Below, one piece after another: positions 21,862 to 32,594 of a stretch of DNA of 32,594 nt. How positions within the stretch are numbered: the stretch's first letter is position 1; each line of letters begins with the position of its first letter. Under the pieces are notes generated by a model. It was not told the DNA's origin, made no database searches, and was given only the letters and a program-made list of their open reading frames with translations. Source of the stretch: an uncultured Clostridia bacterium. GTDB lineage: Bacteria > Bacillota > Clostridia > Christensenellales > DTU072. Made by a program: the position numbers and the translations under genes. The stretch is from assembly GCA_944349655.1 (NCBI GenBank), contig CALVNL010000014.1, forward strand, positions 1-32,594, written 5' to 3'.

Positions 21862-24800
21862 ATGAATAACGGTACCGCCTTGAATCTCAGAATTAAAAAA
21901 GAGGAGTCTTTATCGCGTTTCTTGTCGGAAAGGTTGAAAAAGATAGTTATTCCTTTCCTTCTGGGCGCGATGATACTCGTGCTTTTCCTGGCGACCGGTA
22001 TTTGTTTCGGAAATCCGGATATTGCCATGACCTTATCCGACGAGGTTTACGATTCCGGCAGTGAGCTTACGGAAGGGGGCGTGATCGGACCGGAAACGGA
22101 GGAAGAGTTTTACGCGCAGTTGGACGGGCAGTCCGATTTCGGCGGACTTGACGCCGCTTACGCCATAGGTTCGGCGGGTACTATGGGTCCTAACAGCGTC
22201 AGCGGAAACAACGGTCAATACAAAACCTGGTCAATGACCTACGGCGGAAATCCCGGCGGAAATATGGTAAGCACTTTCTATTGGGCGGGAAACAGAAGTT
22301 CAAACAACCGTTCCACCTGGGGCGGCGGTTGGCAGGTCTGGGGCAGCGGAATCGTGCGTCAGAAAGAGATAATTTTCCGCGGATACGTTTACCTCAGCTT
22401 TTCTACTTTTTTCAGATCGCTTGCGTCAAAAGGTAAATTGTATGTAAGCGGAGCATATGCGGATATTTTTTCGGTCAACGGCTACGATCAACACGTCTGG
22501 TGGGGATACGGCTGGGGGGCGATACATCCTCGGACGGGCGACGGAAACTGGCTTCGCGATTCTTATGCTTCCTGGAATATCTGGACTACCAGTGCAAGAG
22601 GAGAGAGAAAAGGTCATAGTCCCTACGTTCAGGTTCCGACCTGGGCTAGCGGTATTACCATTATGCTGATGTGCCGTACCGACTATAATGCCTGGGTAGG
22701 CGGGCGTTTACCCGGCGGAAAAATTCAGAATATATGGTTCGGTTTTGAAATAAGAGATACCGCGGCTCCTACGGTCACCTTGAAGAATGTCGGGGGTTGG
22801 GCGCAAAGCAAAAGCGTGAAATTTACTCTTTCCGACGACGCCGCGGGGGTCAATAGCGTTCAGTACAGTACCAACAACGGTGCGTCCTATACCAATCTGG
22901 GCAGTCCTTACAATATTAACGGCGTTACCACCGCTCTTAAAATCAGAGCATACGATAAAGCCTCTAACTCTAGAGTTTACGATTTCAGTTTAGCGAAATT
23001 GAAGATAGACCGATCGGCGCCGACGATAACGGGACTTACGTTCGTGGATACGGGGGGAGCGAAGATTTCGAAAGCGACCAGCGGACAGATAAACTTGCGA
23101 ATTACGACCTCGGACGTGGGGTCCGGGGTCTCCTCAGTAGCGGTAACCAATAAATCTACGGGAAAAACTTATACTGCCAAAAAAGTCAGTGCAAACAATT
23201 ATCTTGTCGAAAACGTGGATAACGGTCAGTATTCCGTCGTGGCAAAAGACGGAGTCGGGTGGAGTTCTGCGACGAAGACGGCAAATCTGATTTATAAAGA
23301 TACGCAGATGCCGACTGTCAGCGTAAGTATGACTGCCACGTCGGCGACAAACTATGCCAAGTCTGCAATTACCGCCACTATTACCGTTACGGACGGTACG
23401 GGCGATACCAATGCCAACGTGCTGAATTTACCGGGATTTGCTCAGGCGAGAGAAATAAAGTCTTTGGTAGTCAGCGACGGAGCGAGGACTTATAAAGCGA
23501 CCGCAGGCACTCCCACATATTCCGGCGGGAAAGTTACCGTAAAATATACCGTTCAGTTGCCGTTTACGGGGAGTTACTCTTTCAAGGCGACGGATAACGT
23601 CGATATGACTGCGACTACTTTCAGTCTTAACGGCGGAGCCGCAGTAGACGGTACCTATGTATTTATCGACACCACCGCTCCCTGGATAAGCGGCGTGACA
23701 GTATCAGGCGACGCAAATGTGCTGTGGACGTCTTCCGACGTGACGTTGACCGTAAATTTCAAGGACGACGGTTATACCGCGCCGAGCGGGCAAGGGCTTA
23801 ACCAAGGTAGCGGCGTGGAAAAAGTCAGACTCTTTTACGCTAACGGAAGTCTGATGAAGGAGAAATCGGTAGACGCTTCGGCAACGAGCGTAAGCTTTAC
23901 CTTGACCAAAAACTATAACGAAAACGCTTCTTATAAAATTGTACTGGTAGATGCCGCCGGGAATACTTCCGATTTAGGGGCAGGTGCGGCAAGTTTTAAC
24001 GGGGTCAATTATTCCAACTATTATCAGAATAAAAATAACGTAAATCTTAAAAACGTTACCATATATAAAGATTCCAATCCCGTTAAAATTCAGGTTTTAA
24101 GTGCAGACAAAACTACGGAATATTCCGCAGACCCTTATACTCTTCCCTGGACGACGGCGGCAAGTACGACTTTTGTTCTCAGAGTCACTTTCGGGCCCAG
24201 CGGAGTAACGTTACGTAACAAAGTAGGGTCCTCCGACGCGTTTTTGAGCATCAGCGGGGGAAGTTTCCAGAGTGCCAAAGAAAATTCCGCTTTCAATAAC
24301 GCAGCCAACGTGCGCGAAGTGACCGTTACTTATTCTGCGCAAGGCGTCATACCTTACCAGTTCCAGGCAGCCAACGGCGCCGGGACGATAGCTACAAGTA
24401 ACGTAGTTAATACCAGAATGGACCGTACTCCGCCGGAAGTTAAACTTCTCGGTTTCGGTTCGAGTCTCAGCGGAGGAGCTTCTCTTACTACAGAGGAAGA
24501 CATAATAAACAATATCGAAGACTTTATCAGCGAATCCGATTTCTATAATTCCACTTCCTGGTATAAAAGTTTTATAAGAGCTTATATCCTGATATCCGAC
24601 AGTTATTCCGGCGCGGACGGATCCGATCAGTCCTATTCCGGCGGTACGCAAAGCAGTCTTGCAAAAGGTACTTTATCGTTCAGCCATAACGGTTATACTT
24701 ATACCGAGGTTACCCCGTACTACAGTAAACAGGGCGGAGGGTATTACGTCCTCGGATTGTTGTTGTGGAGTGAAGCCGACATCAGGGCAAAAGCCAGGAA

Positions 24801-27800
24801 TGCGTCGGGGCAGTCTATCGTTATGTCCGACGGAAATCTCGATATCCTGTACGGACAGGGGATTCCCTTTACCTATAATATAGAAATTTCAGACTTTATC
24901 GGGAACAAGAGGTTTGTCACCAATTCCAACAACTCCTCCAACTTGAACTATAACGTCGATCCGTTCAATATAAGTATGGAAATAGTTTCTATAAAAACCG
25001 CCGACGGAGCGGATTACGACTATACTCCCGACGGTAAATCATGGACCAGGCAGGCGGTGACCGTTACCATAAACAAAACCATGGGACTCAGTCCTACGTT
25101 TATAAACTACGGAACCTCGTCGATAGAGGATAAAGACGACGGAACCACTTCGGGCTTAGGCGTATCGCCCACTTCGGCGTGGATGTCGGCGACGACAGAT
25201 TCCGGCTCATCCCGTACTGCTACCGTAGTGCTGACGGCGGAAAGCCGAAGCGAGCAGCTGTTCTTCAAAGTCTTTAACTCCGCCAGGGAAAGTCAGACGT
25301 TTATGTTTAACGGAGAAAGAATAGTCGTTCGTCAGGATACCGATATTCCCACGATGGTGAGTTTCTTCTTCTCGGTCAATCCCGATATAGACTTTAATCC
25401 TTTCGTTCAAGGAGCTCTTAACAAAGACGTACTGCTTTATTACGAAGCTCAAAGAACAGACAACGTTTATACCGTCACCAGGAAATACGTCAACGAAAAT
25501 CTCGATACCGTGTGGGTACACGACGACGTTTATCTTTACGTTATGGCGACCGATTATAACGGCAAAGGTATGGGTTCGGGGATAACATACGTACAAATAA
25601 CCTATAACGGTTCGTACGAATATCTCTATACTTCGCAGACTGGAGAATATCCCAAGTCGATGGTGTACTACGACAGCGCAAGTAAGATAGGGCTTTACAG
25701 AAGCAATAATACTTACGGATATACCAAAGCTACCGAGGTGTTCGGATTAAGTTTCAAACTCATAGACAATCAGAACAATTCCCACTCTTTCTCGGTGGAA
25801 AAAGATTCCGACGGGCATAAACTTCTGCCGGTAGTGGATAAAGTTATTCCCAACGTTTCCATAGAATCCGCTTATTACGGCGGTTCTCAAACGAATTATC
25901 TCGAAAACGGTAAACTTATCGGAAGCGAGGATAATATTATCAGAGAAGATCTTACCGTTAATTTCATATATACGAGCGGTATTTCCGACGTCGGGATTTA
26001 CGCAAGGAAAAACGTCTTTGACGTACCGCTGGATCCGAACGATCCGATTGTCGGATTTTCTTCCGACGCTTTAAGCGGTAAATACGGACTTATTTCCCAG
26101 GCAGGTATAGACCTTAACGACGGAAGCTGGGAACTTCTCGACGGTAAAACAGCCTCCGGAGCGGCGGAAGGCGCGCTGTGGCGCTGGATTACCGAAGCAA
26201 GCGGAAAATCCATAAAGAACCGCTACGACATCATTATAGTCAACGGGGCGGGAGTTTATTATTATCTCGACGCAGGCAACGTGTTTATCGATACCGTCGC
26301 GCCCGAAATTCACGACGAGTTTACTTTCTTTGCGCTCGCCGGAGACGCAGAAAACACCGCCGACGTTATAAATTTCGATTCCCTTAAAAAAATCGATCTC
26401 TCCACTTATACAAACGACAACGTTTACGCATATTTCCGCATTACCGACGCAGCGAGCGGGATAGGTGAAGTTTATACCTATCTTTCGGGCGTAAAAACCT
26501 CCTTGGAAAAGGTTACCGTCAGAAGATCGGTGGACGGTGTTTATTCCGAAGAGGAATATTACCGTCTGTTGCTTACCGAAAACCTCGATTATAAGATTAT
26601 TGCCGTCGATAAAGCGACAAACGTTTCGGAAAGCGCGTCCTTCAAACCGCTTATAGACAAAACCGAAGTAGATCTTAAAATTACCGCCGTTACCGCAAGC
26701 GATAAGATTTATACGAGCGGAAAATTCACCAATGAAAATTATATCCGCCTGACTCTTTATGTCACAACCGGTATAAGCGGCTTCTCGGAAACCACGTTTA
26801 TGTTGAACGACGAAGGACCCTTCGCTATCGATTCGCTTCTGAACGAAGGTAGCTGGGTGATTACCGACAACGGAAGATCGGCTACGGTAAGTTTCTTCCT
26901 CGCCGAAGAACAGAATAAAACTTACACCTTCCGCGCGTACAATAATATAGATACCGAGTATGCTGTGGACGGAATTAAACCTTTCTACGAAAGGCAAATA
27001 ACCATAGCCATCGACCGCACGGCTCCCGTTATCGACGAAAACGACGGAAACTACCTTTTTGTTACCGAAAATTGGCATCCCGACGGACAGGTGCTACAAC
27101 TCAATATCTCCGATCCCAACGATTACGGTTCGGGTATCGCTTCGGTAAAAATCGATTTTACCCTTAACGGCGTGGCACAGCCGCAGGCGGAAATGAAACT
27201 TTCCGACGACGGATATTATTATTCTTATTATAAGGATAAGGAATTCGCTTTAGGGTATTATGCCGATTATACGCTTACCCTTACCGATAACGCCGGGAAC
27301 AGAACGGTTAAAGTAATTCGTCCTAAGGTCGATACCGTAGATCCGTCTTTCGGTGCTTACGCGGACGGCAGTCTGTTCCGCCTTATGACGGCTGCTCGCT
27401 CCGACGACGAGGAGGCGCTCACTCCGTACGAATATACCCCCGATACCTGGACGAAAATGAACGTCGAAAATTATATGAATATCGTTTATTCCATCAGCGG
27501 AGCCCGTCTCCAATACGCTTATGCGGTCAAGGACGGCACTTCCTTCGGAGAATGGAAAGACGCTTTCGGCGCACAGTTTAACTGGGAGGTCGAAGTACCG
27601 CCCACCGAAGCCTGCGGCACCACGGTTTCCGTAAACGATTTCATTTATCTGTTCGACGTCGCTTTCGGCGGCAGTATGGATTACACATATAAATTCCGTA
27701 TCGTCAGCGGAGCGGGCAGAGTAAGCGAGGAACTTACCGTAGGTCGAATAAAAATCGATAAAGTTAAACCGGAAATTGTAGTTAATACGCGTATTAACGG

Positions 27801-30800
27801 AAACAATACCGATTACGGAACGGCAGGGGAAAACGAAACCGTCTTACCCGGTTGGATAGACAACTATCTCTACGTTAACGTTTCCACCCCGTCCACGTTG
27901 GTAAGCGGATATACCGTTTACTACAATATCAGCCAGTCCGATACCCCCGATTGGAAACCCATTACTCTCGGGTTCGTAAATAATCAGAATTTCAATTTCG
28001 ATTATAAGACGCAGCTTCTTATTCATACCGTTACCAACTCTACCAATAACGAAACGTATTCGTATTACTTCGAAAGCGCTTCGGGTATGAGAAGCGAAAT
28101 CTATCACGTAAGGGGTATCAAAATCGATATGGTTAATCCGAGTTTTACTATCTTCGGAGAGGAAAGCGACTCTTTCGGTACTCCGAACACCGATCCCGAT
28201 AAGCTCAATACGGGAACGGCAGCCGATTATACCGGAGACCCGGATAAAAACTATAACTTCGCAAACGCCGTATGGACAGACAGAAACTCCGTAGTTATGA
28301 AAATTTTGATTGAAGAAATCAGAAACTACAGCGGTTTGAGTCTTTACATCAACGACGTTCTTTACGAAGAAATACCTTACGGTACTCCTACGCCATACGA
28401 AAGTTATTACGTGGTGGACAAGACTTCGGACTTTACTTTGGTTTTGAGAAGCGGAGCCAATAAGACCGCGCAACAATCGGCTAAAGTAAGGATAGACAAC
28501 GTTATTCCTATGCTCTATCTTGCGGGCGTCGAAGGCAACAAATCCACTAACTGGGACGATACCGCACCAAACAGCTGGTACACAAGCGTTACCAGACTTA
28601 ATTTCAAGGTCGGTACACTCGTTAAAGGCGAAGACGGCACTTATTCGTTCAGCGACGACTTCCCTGCCAGCGGATACGAAATTCAATATCGCACGGGCAG
28701 AGAAGTGGACGACTCCTGGAATTCCAACGACGCTAGTACCGTTCTTACGGTCGTCGGCAATCCTGCCGAACAGAACGATTATTCCTTCCGTATAGTTTCC
28801 GGTTCGGGAATGACCTTTACTCTCGGTTCTGCGGCTCTCGACAATATGGGTTCGGTTGCGTTTACCAACGAAGAAATTTCCCTTCTTATCGGTAGCGCCG
28901 GCGGATTGATAAGCCATTTGTCGGAAGAAGAATTCAAATATATAGTCAACGTAGACAGCAACGTTTATTATCTCACCACCAGACAGCTCCTCGAATTGGA
29001 AGCCAACGGCAGGGATATACTCGTAACCAGCACTACGTTTGCCGATTATACGGTAGAACTCCTTTTGAACGGATCGTTCACCGTTATACCGGTAGCCGAA
29101 CAGATTTTCCATCGCGGCGATTATATCCGTGTAAGTTATGACACCAACGATTATATTCACCGTTATACCGATTACGGAGTGATAGACGAAAACGGCGACT
29201 GGACGGACGTTAAGGAAACCTACGAGGGCACCGCCGATAACGAAATACAGGGATCGTTCGAATTCAGGTATGTCAACAGTTCCTATACCGTCAAGGCGTA
29301 CTTTATGAAGGAACTCGACGTAACTTACGGCAAAACCGTTATGTATAAACAGTCGGAAACCGAAGCCGCGGTCACTGCAAGTACGTCCTTTACCTATACC
29401 ACCGACCAGGGAGCTATAGACACCGTAACCATACCTTTGCAAATTACTTATACCGATATGAACGGAGTTCCCGCACAGGCGGATAATCTCTCACTCGGCG
29501 GATATATAGTCAATACCGAAGTAGTAGGCAAAAATGCTTTGAGTTTCCGTTTAACCAATCCGCAAACGGTTCTCCTCGTCAAGTATTTCGACGAAAAACT
29601 CGCCTCCGACGGTTCTGAAACGGCTAATTCGGAAACCAATCCTTACGACGTGAGGGCGGCTGTCGATATGGAATATCTGTCCGCCGTTTATTATAAGGAT
29701 TATACCCAAACAGAGGAAGGTTTTGTGTTGGGTACGCCTTACTCTTACTCTACCGCTTATTTCAGAATGAGCGAAGATATTACGCTCGCCGATACCTTTA
29801 CTTCGGTAAGCGGAGTATTCAGCGGTTCCTTCGACGGCAACGGACATACCGTTACCAGAACGGGCGGTATCAGAGTGGACGGAAATTACGGATTGTTTGA
29901 AAATCTTTCCGGTAGCGTGGATAACCTGACGGTTAAATTAAACGGAGAAATAAGCCTTTATAACGTTTCACGTGCAGGTATTCTTGCCCAGACCATTACG
30001 GGCGGAAAAGTTACCGATACAGTGGTACAAGGCAGATTTAACGTGATTACCGCGGCTATGGGTGCACAGATAGGCGGTTTAGCCGGTTCGGTTACCGGTG
30101 CGGAAATAGGTTCTTACAGCGGCGTATCCGACAGACATCCCGTTTATATCGACGTGGTTATTTCCAACCTCGGGAACGCTGTCGCTTCGGCTTCGGTAGG
30201 AGGTCTTACGGGCTATCTCGGCGACGCAAAACTGTTCCATACCTATACCTATTCGCATCTGACGTTCTATAACGTGGACGGCGGAGTAAAAGTGGGCGCG
30301 GTTATAGGTGAGACAGAGCGCACAACTTACGGTGAAGAGGCGTACGAGTACTTCTTCAACAACAGATATCTCGCCGCAAACGTATTCCTCAACGACGCTC
30401 TGAAAGACGGGTTTACGGGAGTTGCGACGGATATTAACGACGCTACGGAAAGCAAAAATACCGTACAGGGACTTTCCTATGAAAACTTTATCGGAGTCGG
30501 TTCCGCTTCTCAGGCCGGTACGGTAAACGTTAACGGCAGTACGATCAGAACTATGGTGCTCGACAGACTTTATTCCGATTTCGGTATCGAAGACGCGGAA
30601 TATGCTTCGGGAACGGGCATTGAAGCCGATCCTCTGCAGATAAGCGTCGTTACTCAGCTCAGGGCTATAGACGAATATATGAACCTCAGTTTCTCGCTTA
30701 TCGAAGACCTCGACCTTTCGGACTTCGGCCAGGCTATCGGGTTGCATAAAGTTTATGCCGGTAAGTTCTTCGGAAACGAACATAAGCTTAATTCCTTCGG

Positions 30801-32220
30801 TATGGGTTACGATATATCCGACGGAGACAGAATAGGGTTGTTCGCCGAAGTCAGCGGCACGGTCACCGATTTGATTTTCCTCGATGTAGCGGTTAATTAT
30901 GAAGGAAATATCGGTAATCTCTATTCCGCTGTGGTTGCCGCAAGACTCAACGGAGGCACGGTAGGAAACGTTTATGCCATAGGTACTTCCGTAGTGGATA
31001 ACGGTAACGGAATGGTTTACTCGGGCGCCGTGGCAGGCGAAGCCGTAAACGCTACGGTTTACGATATATTCAGTATCGTGAATATAAAAGTATCCACTAC
31101 TACGGAGGTTTATGCCGGCGGAATAATCGGAAAATCCGACTCAACTCGTCTGGGTAGTTATACCGACAAATATAACGTAGAAAAAGTCGGCGCGGTATTT
31201 GCTCTCGGCAGGACGGAAATTGTCGGCGATATAGTTCACTCGGCGTCGGCTGTCGCGGAGGGGACCGTACAAGCGGATTCCGTTAACGTGTTTACCATAG
31301 CAGGAAACGTTTATACCAACGGCAAGACCGTAGATAATACTTTATCCGACGCAATAAGCATAGTGGACTTCGAGTCTCTCGAAATGAGAAGCGCGGTATT
31401 CTCTAACGGCGTCAACGCGTTCAATAAAGTTTTCGAAACCGATAATCTTTACTATCTGCAAGGTAAAGGTATTTCTACCGACAAGTTTATAGTAAGCAAC
31501 GTGGAAGATTTTGCAAAAATCGAACATATGCTTTACGCCGACTACAATATTGCAAACGATATCGATTTCGGCGGAACGGAGTTCAAGACTATCGGAGAAG
31601 GTTTACTCTTTACCGGGTCAATAGACGGTAAAAACGAAAACAGCGGAAGCGCTGAAGAAGGAACGGTAAGCAGTCTTACCAACGTGACGGACGCCTTTGT
31701 ATATAATAATGCGGGAAGCATTTCCGACTTGGTTATCAACATTCAGTACGAAAGAACCATAGACGGAGAAGACCTCGTATTCGGTGCCGTTGCGATAATA
31801 AACAGTATCGGAACCATTCGTAACGTAACCGTAAGCGGAACCATCGACATCAACGCACTTAACAAAAACTCCAGCGTAACGGTATCAGGTTTCGTGGGAA
31901 TAGCCGAGGGCGGTAGGATAGAAACCGACAGTAAAGTACAAAACAGCATAAGCGGATTGACTATTACCGTAAGCGACGTACTGACCGTTTACGCAGGCGG
32001 CTTCATCGGACTCGTGGAACACGATATGACGCTTACCTACGGAATAGGCGACGGCGAATTGATTATCGAGAACTGCGACAACGTCAATGCAGGTACGCTC
32101 GTCGGACGCGCTAATGCGGTGTGTGACTGGTCGTCCATTGCAGAAACGGAGGAATACCGTTATACCGTATTTATCGACGGAGTGGAAAGCACCAAACTTT
32201 TCGGATACAAATCCGTCTGA
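21862..32220 (+). CDS. Giant (3452-residue) anchored surface protein: Ig-like repeat array plus GLUG-type beta-solenoid
   Basis: A positively charged N-terminus and one hydrophobic segment (about 28-49) give either a signal anchor or a signal peptide. Residues 120-295 are aromatic-rich, with 14 tryptophans in about 170 residues and a beta-sandwich look. Ig-like modules follow, each opening with an Asp-x-x-x-Pro-type boundary such as DRSAPT, DTTAPW, DRTPPE, DTVAPE, DRTAPV or DKVKPE. I place boundaries at residues 299, 383, 480, 603, 854, 1159, 1326, 1477, 1599 (degenerate), 1718, 1824, 1966, 2089 and 2212. Residues ~2300-2620 are beta-rich and unassigned. Three GLUG-like cassettes start near 2633, 2942 and 3228; the best is GSFDGNGHTVTRTGG then YGLFENLSGSVDNLTVKL. 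Only about five cysteines occur. No LPXTG, SLH, dockerin or C-terminal membrane segment is present, so retention would rely on the N-terminus. An adhesin or carbohydrate-contacting role is inferred; no enzyme domain is recognised. Confidence 0.85.
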   Translation: MNNGTALNLRIKKEESLSRFLSERLKKIVIPFLLGAMILVLFLATGICFGNPDIAMTLSDEVYDSGSELTEGGVIGPETEEEFYAQLDGQSDFGGLDAAYAIGSAGTMGPNSVSGNNGQYKTWSMTYGGNPGGNMVSTFYWAGNRSSNNRSTWGGGWQVWGSGIVRQKEIIFRGYVYLSFSTFFRSLASKGKLYVSGAYADIFSVNGYDQHVWWGYGWGAIHPRTGDGNWLRDSYASWNIWTTSARGERKGHSPYVQVPTWASGITIMLMCRTDYNAWVGGRLPGGKIQNIWFGFEIRDTAAPTVTLKNVGGWAQSKSVKFTLSDDAAGVNSVQYSTNNGASYTNLGSPYNINGVTTALKIRAYDKASNSRVYDFSLAKLKIDRSAPTITGLTFVDTGGAKISKATSGQINLRITTSDVGSGVSSVAVTNKSTGKTYTAKKVSANNYLVENVDNGQYSVVAKDGVGWSSATKTANLIYKDTQMPTVSVSMTATSATNYAKSAITATITVTDGTGDTNANVLNLPGFAQAREIKSLVVSDGARTYKATAGTPTYSGGKVTVKYTVQLPFTGSYSFKATDNVDMTATTFSLNGGAAVDGTYVFIDTTAPWISGVTVSGDANVLWTSSDVTLTVNFKDDGYTAPSGQGLNQGSGVEKVRLFYANGSLMKEKSVDASATSVSFTLTKNYNENASYKIVLVDAAGNTSDLGAGAASFNGVNYSNYYQNKNNVNLKNVTIYKDSNPVKIQVLSADKTTEYSADPYTLPWTTAASTTFVLRVTFGPSGVTLRNKVGSSDAFLSISGGSFQSAKENSAFNNAANVREVTVTYSAQGVIPYQFQAANGAGTIATSNVVNTRMDRTPPEVKLLGFGSSLSGGASLTTEEDIINNIEDFISESDFYNSTSWYKSFIRAYILISDSYSGADGSDQSYSGGTQSSLAKGTLSFSHNGYTYTEVTPYYSKQGGGYYVLGLLLWSEADIRAKARNASGQSIVMSDGNLDILYGQGIPFTYNIEISDFIGNKRFVTNSNNSSNLNYNVDPFNISMEIVSIKTADGADYDYTPDGKSWTRQAVTVTINKTMGLSPTFINYGTSSIEDKDDGTTSGLGVSPTSAWMSATTDSGSSRTATVVLTAESRSEQLFFKVFNSARESQTFMFNGERIVVRQDTDIPTMVSFFFSVNPDIDFNPFVQGALNKDVLLYYEAQRTDNVYTVTRKYVNENLDTVWVHDDVYLYVMATDYNGKGMGSGITYVQITYNGSYEYLYTSQTGEYPKSMVYYDSASKIGLYRSNNTYGYTKATEVFGLSFKLIDNQNNSHSFSVEKDSDGHKLLPVVDKVIPNVSIESAYYGGSQTNYLENGKLIGSEDNIIREDLTVNFIYTSGISDVGIYARKNVFDVPLDPNDPIVGFSSDALSGKYGLISQAGIDLNDGSWELLDGKTASGAAEGALWRWITEASGKSIKNRYDIIIVNGAGVYYYLDAGNVFIDTVAPEIHDEFTFFALAGDAENTADVINFDSLKKIDLSTYTNDNVYAYFRITDAASGIGEVYTYLSGVKTSLEKVTVRRSVDGVYSEEEYYRLLLTENLDYKIIAVDKATNVSESASFKPLIDKTEVDLKITAVTASDKIYTSGKFTNENYIRLTLYVTTGISGFSETTFMLNDEGPFAIDSLLNEGSWVITDNGRSATVSFFLAEEQNKTYTFRAYNNIDTEYAVDGIKPFYERQITIAIDRTAPVIDENDGNYLFVTENWHPDGQVLQLNISDPNDYGSGIASVKIDFTLNGVAQPQAEMKLSDDGYYYSYYKDKEFALGYYADYTLTLTDNAGNRTVKVIRPKVDTVDPSFGAYADGSLFRLMTAARSDDEEALTPYEYTPDTWTKMNVENYMNIVYSISGARLQYAYAVKDGTSFGEWKDAFGAQFNWEVEVPPTEACGTTVSVNDFIYLFDVAFGGSMDYTYKFRIVSGAGRVSEELTVGRIKIDKVKPEIVVNTRINGNNTDYGTAGENETVLPGWIDNYLYVNVSTPSTLVSGYTVYYNISQSDTPDWKPITLGFVNNQNFNFDYKTQLLIHTVTNSTNNETYSYYFESASGMRSEIYHVRGIKIDMVNPSFTIFGEESDSFGTPNTDPDKLNTGTAADYTGDPDKNYNFANAVWTDRNSVVMKILIEEIRNYSGLSLYINDVLYEEIPYGTPTPYESYYVVDKTSDFTLVLRSGANKTAQQSAKVRIDNVIPMLYLAGVEGNKSTNWDDTAPNSWYTSVTRLNFKVGTLVKGEDGTYSFSDDFPASGYEIQYRTGREVDDSWNSNDASTVLTVVGNPAEQNDYSFRIVSGSGMTFTLGSAALDNMGSVAFTNEEISLLIGSAGGLISHLSEEEFKYIVNVDSNVYYLTTRQLLELEANGRDILVTSTTFADYTVELLLNGSFTVIPVAEQIFHRGDYIRVSYDTNDYIHRYTDYGVIDENGDWTDVKETYEGTADNEIQGSFEFRYVNSSYTVKAYFMKELDVTYGKTVMYKQSETEAAVTASTSFTYTTDQGAIDTVTIPLQITYTDMNGVPAQADNLSLGGYIVNTEVVGKNALSFRLTNPQTVLLVKYFDEKLASDGSETANSETNPYDVRAAVDMEYLSAVYYKDYTQTEEGFVLGTPYSYSTAYFRMSEDITLADTFTSVSGVFSGSFDGNGHTVTRTGGIRVDGNYGLFENLSGSVDNLTVKLNGEISLYNVSRAGILAQTITGGKVTDTVVQGRFNVITAAMGAQIGGLAGSVTGAEIGSYSGVSDRHPVYIDVVISNLGNAVASASVGGLTGYLGDAKLFHTYTYSHLTFYNVDGGVKVGAVIGETERTTYGEEAYEYFFNNRYLAANVFLNDALKDGFTGVATDINDATESKNTVQGLSYENFIGVGSASQAGTVNVNGSTIRTMVLDRLYSDFGIEDAEYASGTGIEADPLQISVVTQLRAIDEYMNLSFSLIEDLDLSDFGQAIGLHKVYAGKFFGNEHKLNSFGMGYDISDGDRIGLFAEVSGTVTDLIFLDVAVNYEGNIGNLYSAVVAARLNGGTVGNVYAIGTSVVDNGNGMVYSGAVAGEAVNATVYDIFSIVNIKVSTTTEVYAGGIIGKSDSTRLGSYTDKYNVEKVGAVFALGRTEIVGDIVHSASAVAEGTVQADSVNVFTIAGNVYTNGKTVDNTLSDAISIVDFESLEMRSAVFSNGVNAFNKVFETDNLYYLQGKGISTDKFIVSNVEDFAKIEHMLYADYNIANDIDFGGTEFKTIGEGLLFTGSIDGKNENSGSAEEGTVSSLTNVTDAFVYNNAGSISDLVINIQYERTIDGEDLVFGAVAIINSIGTIRNVTVSGTIDINALNKNSSVTVSGFVGIAEGGRIETDSKVQNSISGLTITVSDVLTVYAGGFIGLVEHDMTLTYGIGDGELIIENCDNVNAGTLVGRANAVCDWSSIAETEEYRYTVFIDGVESTKLFGYKSV

Positions 32221-32318: not shown

Positions 32319-32393
32319 GGCCCCATGGTCAAGCGGTCAAGACTCCGCCCTCTCACGGCGGCTACAGGAGTTCGAATCTCCTTGGGGTCACCA
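32319..32393 (+). tRNA. tRNA-Glu (anticodon CUC), CCA encoded
   Basis: This 75-base tRNA folds fully. The acceptor GGCCCCA pairs with TGGGGTC (one G-U pair), followed by discriminator A and an encoded CCA. The anticodon stem CCGCC/GGCGG encloses the loop CTCTCAC, with anticodon CTC at 32352-32354, which reads GAG. The T arm is AGGAG-TTCGAAT-CTCCT. The CUC anticodon marks it as a minor companion to a tRNA-Glu(UUC) that must exist elsewhere. It stands alone here, directly after the giant gene's terminator, and has its own promoter and terminator. Confidence 0.95.
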
Positions 32394-32408
32394 AAAAAAA
32401 CATACCCA
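32387..32408 (+). repeat. tRNA 3' end/terminator repeat, copy 1
   Basis: GGTCACC, an A8 run and CATACCCA recur at 32572-32594 with an A7 run. Copy 1 is the functional tRNA 3' end plus the first arm of its terminator. See the second copy and the element between them. Confidence 0.8.
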
Positions 32409-32432
32409 TTTATTAGTGGGTATGTTTTTTTT
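32393..32432 (+). terminator. Terminator of tRNA-Glu
   Basis: Beginning at the last base of the CCA, an A8 tract plus CATACCCA (32401-32408) pairs with TGGGTATG (32417-32424) plus T8 (32425-32432) around an 8-base loop. The A and T tracts let the stem extend to about 16 bp. Confidence 0.9.
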
Positions 32433-32571
32433 GCCCAAGAGATAGACCCCTGTCAGGAGTTCGCAAATTCTGCGAAGCAGAATCTGGCGGCAGATTTAAG
32501 AAATAGAAAGGTAAAATAAAATCAAAAGAGAAATAAATGAAAGGAATATTCTGCCGCTATCTCCTAAATAG
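32433..32571. repeat. Non-coding hairpin-rich element between tRNA-end repeats
   Basis: No gene is visible in these ~140 bases. The segment holds a second CAGGAGTTCG (32454-32463), identical to 10 bases of the tRNA T arm (32365-32374). Two back-to-back perfect hairpins follow: ATTCTGC-GAA-GCAGAAT (32467-32483) and AATCTG-GCGG-CAGATT (32481-32496). An inverted repeat GCGGCAGA (32487-32494) / TCTGCCGC (32550-32557) brackets an A-rich stretch. ATCTCCT (32559-32565) again matches the tRNA (32376-32382). It looks like a tRNA 3'-half copy broken by an inserted small structured element, possibly a MITE or REP-like unit. This is inference from matches seen by eye. Confidence 0.5.
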
Positions 32572-32594
32572 TGGTCACCAAAAAAACATACCCA
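32572..32594 (+). repeat. tRNA 3' end/terminator repeat, copy 2 (cut by window edge)
   Basis: GGTCACC, A7 and CATACCCA repeat the end of tRNA-Glu and its terminator arm, about 185 bases after copy 1. There is no complete tRNA directly upstream, so this is a tRNA-end remnant or an attachment-site-like duplication. The rest lies beyond the window. Confidence 0.7.

Follow-up and report, generated by a model that had tools for sequence, protein, structure and literature searches.

The window, that is, the whole 32,594-base stretch analysed here, is contig C14 of a 1.66-Mb draft genome (G000; 72 contigs, 96% complete), and its right end coincides with the end of that contig. The sole tRNA predicted in the window, tRNA-Glu(CTC), is followed by a terminator and by a series of short repeated and folded parts that run up to the contig end (Table 1). 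Upstream of the tRNA lies an ORF of 3452 aa (21862–32220) with no Pfam match, a homologue of which occupies the same position in the related genome G004. A mini-ORF spotted by eye at 32537–32594, open at the contig end, was judged to be a chance occurrence.

Table 1. Features at the right end of the window
Feature	Position	Strand	Basis or detail
tRNA-Glu(CTC), CCA encoded, host tRNA of the module	32319..32393	+	ARAGORN; Rfam RF00005, 60.5 bits
First terminator hairpin, opens module 1	32392..32433	+	Inverted repeat, 17-bp arms 32392–32408 / 32417–32433
Inverted, degenerate acceptor/T-arm copy, CCCAAGAGATAGACCCCTG (tRNA antisense CCCAAGGAGATTCGAACTCCTG)	32434..32452	-	Other modules have inverted copies at the corresponding position
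Direct copy of the T-arm 5' strand, CAGGAGTTCG (tRNA original 32365–32374)	32454..32463	+	Sequence match
Type-B core: hairpins ATTCTGC-GAA-GCAGAAT (32467–32483) and AATCTG-GCGG-CAGATT (32481–32496); 8-bp inverted repeat GCGGCAGA/TCTGCCGC (32487–32494/32550–32557)	32464..32558	+	
Displaced tRNA 3' tail copy (ATCTCCTAAATAGTGGTCACCA) whose acceptor part bears an insertion; closes module 1	32559..32580	+	
Second terminator copy, 5' arm (CAAAAAAACATACCCA); opens module 2, cut by the contig end	32579..32594	+	

Module 1 is ~187 bp long. The repeat of GGTCACC with seven or eight A residues, on which the first-pass annotation had based its reading, proved to be real once its coordinates were corrected: GGTCACC-A8-CATACCCA (32386–32408) belongs to tRNA-Glu(CTC) and its terminator; a second copy with one A fewer, GGTCACC-A7-CATACCCA, is at 32573–32594. 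The longest exact direct repeat measures 15 nt. The reported T-arm repeats were also present, both as the copy of the T-arm 5' strand listed in Table 1 and as a further occurrence of ATCTCCT (32559–32565), as were the two tandem hairpins and the 8-bp inverted repeat. Comparison of the tail plus terminator arm with the 161 nt following the terminator gave a score of 49, the best of 2000 dinucleotide shuffles reaching 39. The displaced tail without the terminator arm, degenerate by an indel relative to the tRNA, was marginal in the window (matched by 23 of 2000 shuffles), as was the inverted T-arm copy on its own (48 of 2000). For the copy of the T-arm 5' strand, the adjoining tRNA outscored all 19 other tRNAs compared. 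The single-stranded DNA fold of 32434–32579 had a z-score of −3.38 (0 of 200 shuffles).

A search of the genome for the core (ATTCTGCGAAGCAGAAT), as proposed at first pass, gave no second close copy. Relatives of the same type, termed B (TTCG-CAAATT-hairpin-AATCTG), were located at a tRNA-Ser on contig C1 of G000 and at a tRNA-Glu in G004. The first core hairpin occurs once in the genome with up to one mismatch allowed. Pattern GAGATAGACCCCTGTCAGGAG from the window was present in the window's own genome only among 396 genomes of the order and was absent from the viral contigs searched; plasmids and phages gave no BLASTN match to the element. A family-wide BLASTN listed matches in 9 of 40 genomes, those outside the window's own genome being short A/T-rich or coding stretches that were judged to be chance. 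When the window end and the modules described below were searched against Rfam, the only families above cut-off were tRNA, a SAM riboswitch in one locus (L223) and RtT in E. coli.

Extension to the right led to contig C67, at whose end a further copy of the element lies (exact over 42 nt, 76% over 126 nt) and which runs on into a GH3 beta-glucosidase gene. No integrase was found in or beside the module, and none on C14 or C67, between which the draft has a gap. The sister species G003 has tRNA-Glu(CTC), its terminator, a short gap with no module, and then the GH3 orthologue (68% identical over 467 aa). This is a module-free version of the locus, a comparison of the kind that the first-pass annotation had proposed, and it shows presence/absence variation between sister species. 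On one contig of G004, a homologue of the upstream gene (50% over 479 aa) is followed by tRNA-Glu(CTC), modules, ~2 kb of other sequence and the GH3 gene (73%); the tail of the tRNA recurs exactly, in direct orientation, 383 bp further on, and the interval contains an inverted copy as well as the terminator again, at 184-bp spacing. Because of the module copy and GH3 gene on C67 and the gene order in G003 and G004, contigs C14 and C67 are very probably neighbours in the genome, with an array of at least two modules between them as judged from sequence. The contig breaks within a repeat, and the genome is a draft of 72 contigs, as would be expected if the arrangement were an assembly artefact at the contig end; however, the two copies differ by an indel, and the same arrangement lies inside the orthologous G004 contig, on many other contigs and in E. 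coli K-12, which makes an artefact extremely improbable.

The duplicated tRNA 3' half of the first-pass annotation, whose insert proved to lie in the T loop, downstream of a tRNA that served as an insertion site, is thus supported; the arrangement recurs at the orthologous locus and at other tRNAs as well. Out of 42 tRNAs in G000, 39 were in the loci examined; 24 of them end an operon and 16 of these have at least 150 nt of sequence downstream. Modules were found at 8 of these 16 testable operon-ending tRNAs, contrary to the notion of an isolated, one-off element. The tail is copied exactly behind Ser-TGA, Gly-CCC, Arg-CCT, Trp and Pro-CGG; Leu-CAA carries a core of a second type (core A, see below), and Thr-GGT and Glu-CTC carry tail copies with indels. 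Behind the remaining 8 of the 24 the sequence breaks off within 150 nt, mostly at contig ends, and such contig ends at tRNAs may be places where module arrays broke the assembly. Contigs C10, C23, C25, C27, C54 and C67 of G000 stop ~0–40 nt from a tRNA 3' end, as if tail repeats had interrupted them. Behind tRNA-Ser(TGA) (L186; G000:C1:1-3420, reverse strand), 2.4 kb with ABC-transporter genes is followed by an array in which unlike modules succeed one another in the order B-A-B-C, every one of them ending in the Ser tail; the two B copies are alike. At tRNA-Gly(CCC) (L198, G000:C31), the module is swollen to ~545 bp by inserted sequence with repeats of its own.

Modules are thus small, hairpin-rich, non-coding-looking DNA units behind many tRNA genes, mostly ~100–210 bp long (<250 bp). 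Their parts come in a set order: tRNA terminator, inverted T-arm copy, in some the T-arm 5' strand, hairpin core and copy of the tRNA 3' tail, each module ending in a copy of about the last 19 letters of the adjoining tRNA. A 19-nt tail copy (at most two mismatches, within 600 nt) was found at 12 of 412 tRNAs scanned, each with at least 60 nt downstream, which is not an unbiased rate because the set includes loci chosen for the pattern and E. coli; one copy was found in upstream controls and one with the tail of another tRNA. The 5' boundary of the copy, extended from a seed of the last 12 nt, fell at tRNA position 56–58 in 15 of 16 copies and at position 63 in the remaining one. Across the 20 modules available for flank comparison (locus L180 yielded none), the best fit of the inverted copy was to its own tRNA in 12, the window's not among them, and the T-arm 5' strand did so in 6, the window's included. 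An inverted tRNA-Glu pattern was found at 16 loci in a genome search, half of them (8/16) at a tRNA-Glu, and at four loci in viral contigs. Tandem units were nearly identical at two loci (L034 and L144), as expected from plain tandem duplication. In L034 (CALVWO010000032.1) and L042 (CALVLV010000003.1), tRNA-Glu(TTC) precedes a tandem series of units that have inverted tail copies and GC-rich hairpins, a number of these units being near-identical in L034; the units of both loci lack a match to the model R1 introduced below.

BLASTN against 38 genomes of the family placed core A at 22 sites in 7 genomes, all of the window's genus. Many of these sites adjoin a tRNA for Arg, Gly, Pro, Val, Leu, Ser or Glu; several others have no tRNA nearby, and some of those have tail-like flanks. 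No core-A motif was found in viral contigs. At one such site (L185, G007:C18:12000-29497), two core-A modules enclose 5.2 kb encoding a WYL regulator and a metallophosphatase, and a large serine recombinase gene adjoins this ectopic pair. Core identity and tail identity were uncorrelated (r = 0.13; 14 cores, 91 pairs, the G007 Val core being a few bases too long at its left flank boundary). For instance, the Gly core of G009 and the Ser core of G000 are 96% identical while their tails share 50%, and the Arg modules of G000 and G007 have a common tail and cores only 71% identical. Cores with identities of up to 96% are thus found beside different tRNAs whose tails are unrelated, so that the cores appear to move, their flanks matching the target.

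Model R1, built for core type A, had matches at 64 places in 33 of 297 genomes of the order (mostly drafts) and in 15 of 125 genera. Twenty-five of these places were examined (loci L209–L233), 24 of them outside the window's genus. A tRNA lies 32–221 nt upstream of the match in 24 of 25 loci, and the match ends in the own tail of the neighbouring tRNA with 19/19 identity in 21 of 25 and 18/19 in one; weaker matches were seen in one locus at 16/19, where tRNA bases were undetermined, and in one at 15/19. In a control on 22 of the loci, the own tail reached 19/19 in 20, and the tails of other tRNAs stayed at or below 18/19 in all 452 comparisons. Applied to 18 sources including the window and E. 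coli, R1 matched L186 and L040 only. Because it misses the window, E. coli and several other tail-copy loci, more than one core type exists, and the tie of the window module to type A rests on the shared order of parts and on the type-B relative that stands in an array with type A.

Core A also showed signs of a conserved fold. Ten of the 14 core-A modules extracted were aligned (alignment A2, which omits G002_SerGGA, G007_ect3, G004_Glu and G001_Gly) and share a 38-pair structure with compensatory changes in 14 pairs. Covariation was 0.291 against 0.121 ± 0.014 in shuffled alignments (0 of 500), and 0.288 against 0.094 (0 of 500) for 35 distinct sequences matched by R1, an alignment biased towards the model to which it had been fitted. 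These values support the core A fold; the flank and covariation statistics come mostly from type A, and the window module is of type B.

Genomic islands classically land at tRNA 3' ends, and the first-pass annotation had offered an attachment-site remnant of an integrated element as one explanation. In a broader form, islands would have integrated repeatedly at T loops by means of tyrosine integrases and then been lost, leaving displaced tails. Displaced 3' tDNA fragments are a signature of tDNA islands, and sites in the T loop and T stem are common among them, according to the Islander report (PMC4383910); like such islands, modules have a displaced 3' tRNA fragment downstream, in the same orientation and starting in the T loop. 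Some intervals also hold genes, namely the ABC transporters at tRNA-Ser and the 5.2 kb of G007:C18. Unlike islands, however, modules have no integrase, share a core among several tRNAs and carry an inverted T-arm copy, and they fall far under the 2-kb minimum of Islander. Islander drops candidates below 2 kb or without an integrase (PMC4383910), so modules would be missing from that catalogue. A single remnant of one island is not supported, as no integrase lies in or beside the module: the one PF00589 protein of the genome, encoded on contig C1, is Xer-like, below every curated NCBIfam cut-off listed and nearest to XerS (193 against a cut-off of 267). A simple attachment-site remnant also fails to explain the same cores at many tRNAs with flanks matching each, and a tRNA-specific inverted T arm and a conserved covarying structure argue further against repeated integration and loss, which we regard as improbable. 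A tyrosine integrase using the whole T loop as its overlap was considered and rejected, as most copies lack the loop TTCG.

We therefore favour, at somewhat better than even confidence, the reading that an array of tRNA-tail modules occupies the right end of the window, the modules being non-autonomous elements that settle at tRNA 3' ends and are moved in trans. It draws on what the comparisons showed: a recurrent architecture, flanks that match the tRNA, cores common to different tRNAs, covariation and presence/absence. Against it count that no recombinase could be linked to the modules and that the window's inverted copy is marginal and not specific to its own tRNA. A module opens right after the CCA with the terminator, continues with the inverted T arm and the hairpin core, and closes with a fresh tail from T loop to CCA; this fresh copy keeps the tRNA whole, so that the next module can follow. 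Cores would travel between tRNAs with both flanks matching the resident tRNA. Insertion may take place at the tail (T loop to CCA), either by recombination or by copying, through an enzyme that acts in trans and has the folded module as its substrate.

How the flanks come to match is a question in its own right. On simple integration in the T loop the donor's tail would spoil the new host tRNA, and plain integrase action thus fails to explain target-matched flanks. We tentatively suggest, as a possibility held with rather low confidence, a new mode of insertion in which the structured core acquires both flanks by copying the target, the tail (~58 to 76) directly and the T arm (53–65) inverted, while the tRNA stays whole. 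Such copying might go through a folded single strand or a reverse-transcription-like step with the tRNA as primer or template; retroviral plus-strand synthesis copies roughly this stretch of a tRNA before it stops at position 58. The suggestion is retained because a circle that simply integrated would carry the donor's tail with it. If the modules are indeed mobile, elements mostly <250 bp long behind many kinds of tRNA, with flanks matched to each, would represent a new use of tRNA 3' ends, and the puzzle of flank matching makes the copying step testable.

Among known systems, integron cassette arrays (attC) resemble the modules in that unlike units are parted by a short common site and in that a site is folded and covarying. 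In contrast to cassettes, modules look non-coding and have the tRNA tail as their common site, and no integron integrase was found in G000 (96% complete draft), where the PF00589 protein scored 74.4 bits against TIGR02249 (cut-off 265). No paper on clostridial tRNA-tail modules was found in the literature searched, the coverage of which leaves out most subscription papers.

To our knowledge, the only described relative of the modules is one E. coli locus, tyrT, with its 178-bp repeats (RtT RNA; Rfam RF00391, rttR, tpr). At tyrT/tyrV (L094, E. coli MG1655 1286000-1288500), the 19-nt tail copies correspond exactly to tRNA positions 58–76 at 178-bp spacing, and the inverted tail copy outscored all 2000 shuffles. 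There are four RtT matches, one between the two tRNAs, the tyrT–tyrV spacer itself being an RtT unit. The order of parts is identical, with inverted tail copy (GGGGAAGGAT), T-arm 5' strand (AAGGTTCG), hairpin core and tail, and the units are likewise in tandem. In addition, GAGCGCCAGCGAGAGAGCG in the E. coli unit resembles GAGCGATAGCGAGAGTGCG, the right end of clostridial core A. The E. coli repeats differ from the clostridial modules in occurring at tRNA-Tyr alone, in the locus examined, and in that no terminator hairpin was noticed straight after the tRNA; the models do not cross either, RtT matching E. coli and neither the window end nor the clostridial loci searched, and R1 giving no match in E. 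coli. This likeness, together with the strong covariation in core A, could mean that the modules are RtT-like structured RNA units, cotranscribed with the tRNA, freed by 3' processing at the copied CCA and kept for a function of the RNA, with arrays arising by tandem duplication; RtT RNAs are reported to be set free in the course of tRNA processing (PMC4986893). We consider this unlikely, since in the clostridial modules read a terminator stands between tRNA and core, so that transcription past the tRNA should be low, and since cores cross between tRNAs with flanks matching the new one and arrays are mosaics of unlike cores. If, as we favour, the clostridial modules are elements moved in trans to tRNA 3' ends, they would offer a possible origin for the E. 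coli tyrT repeats.
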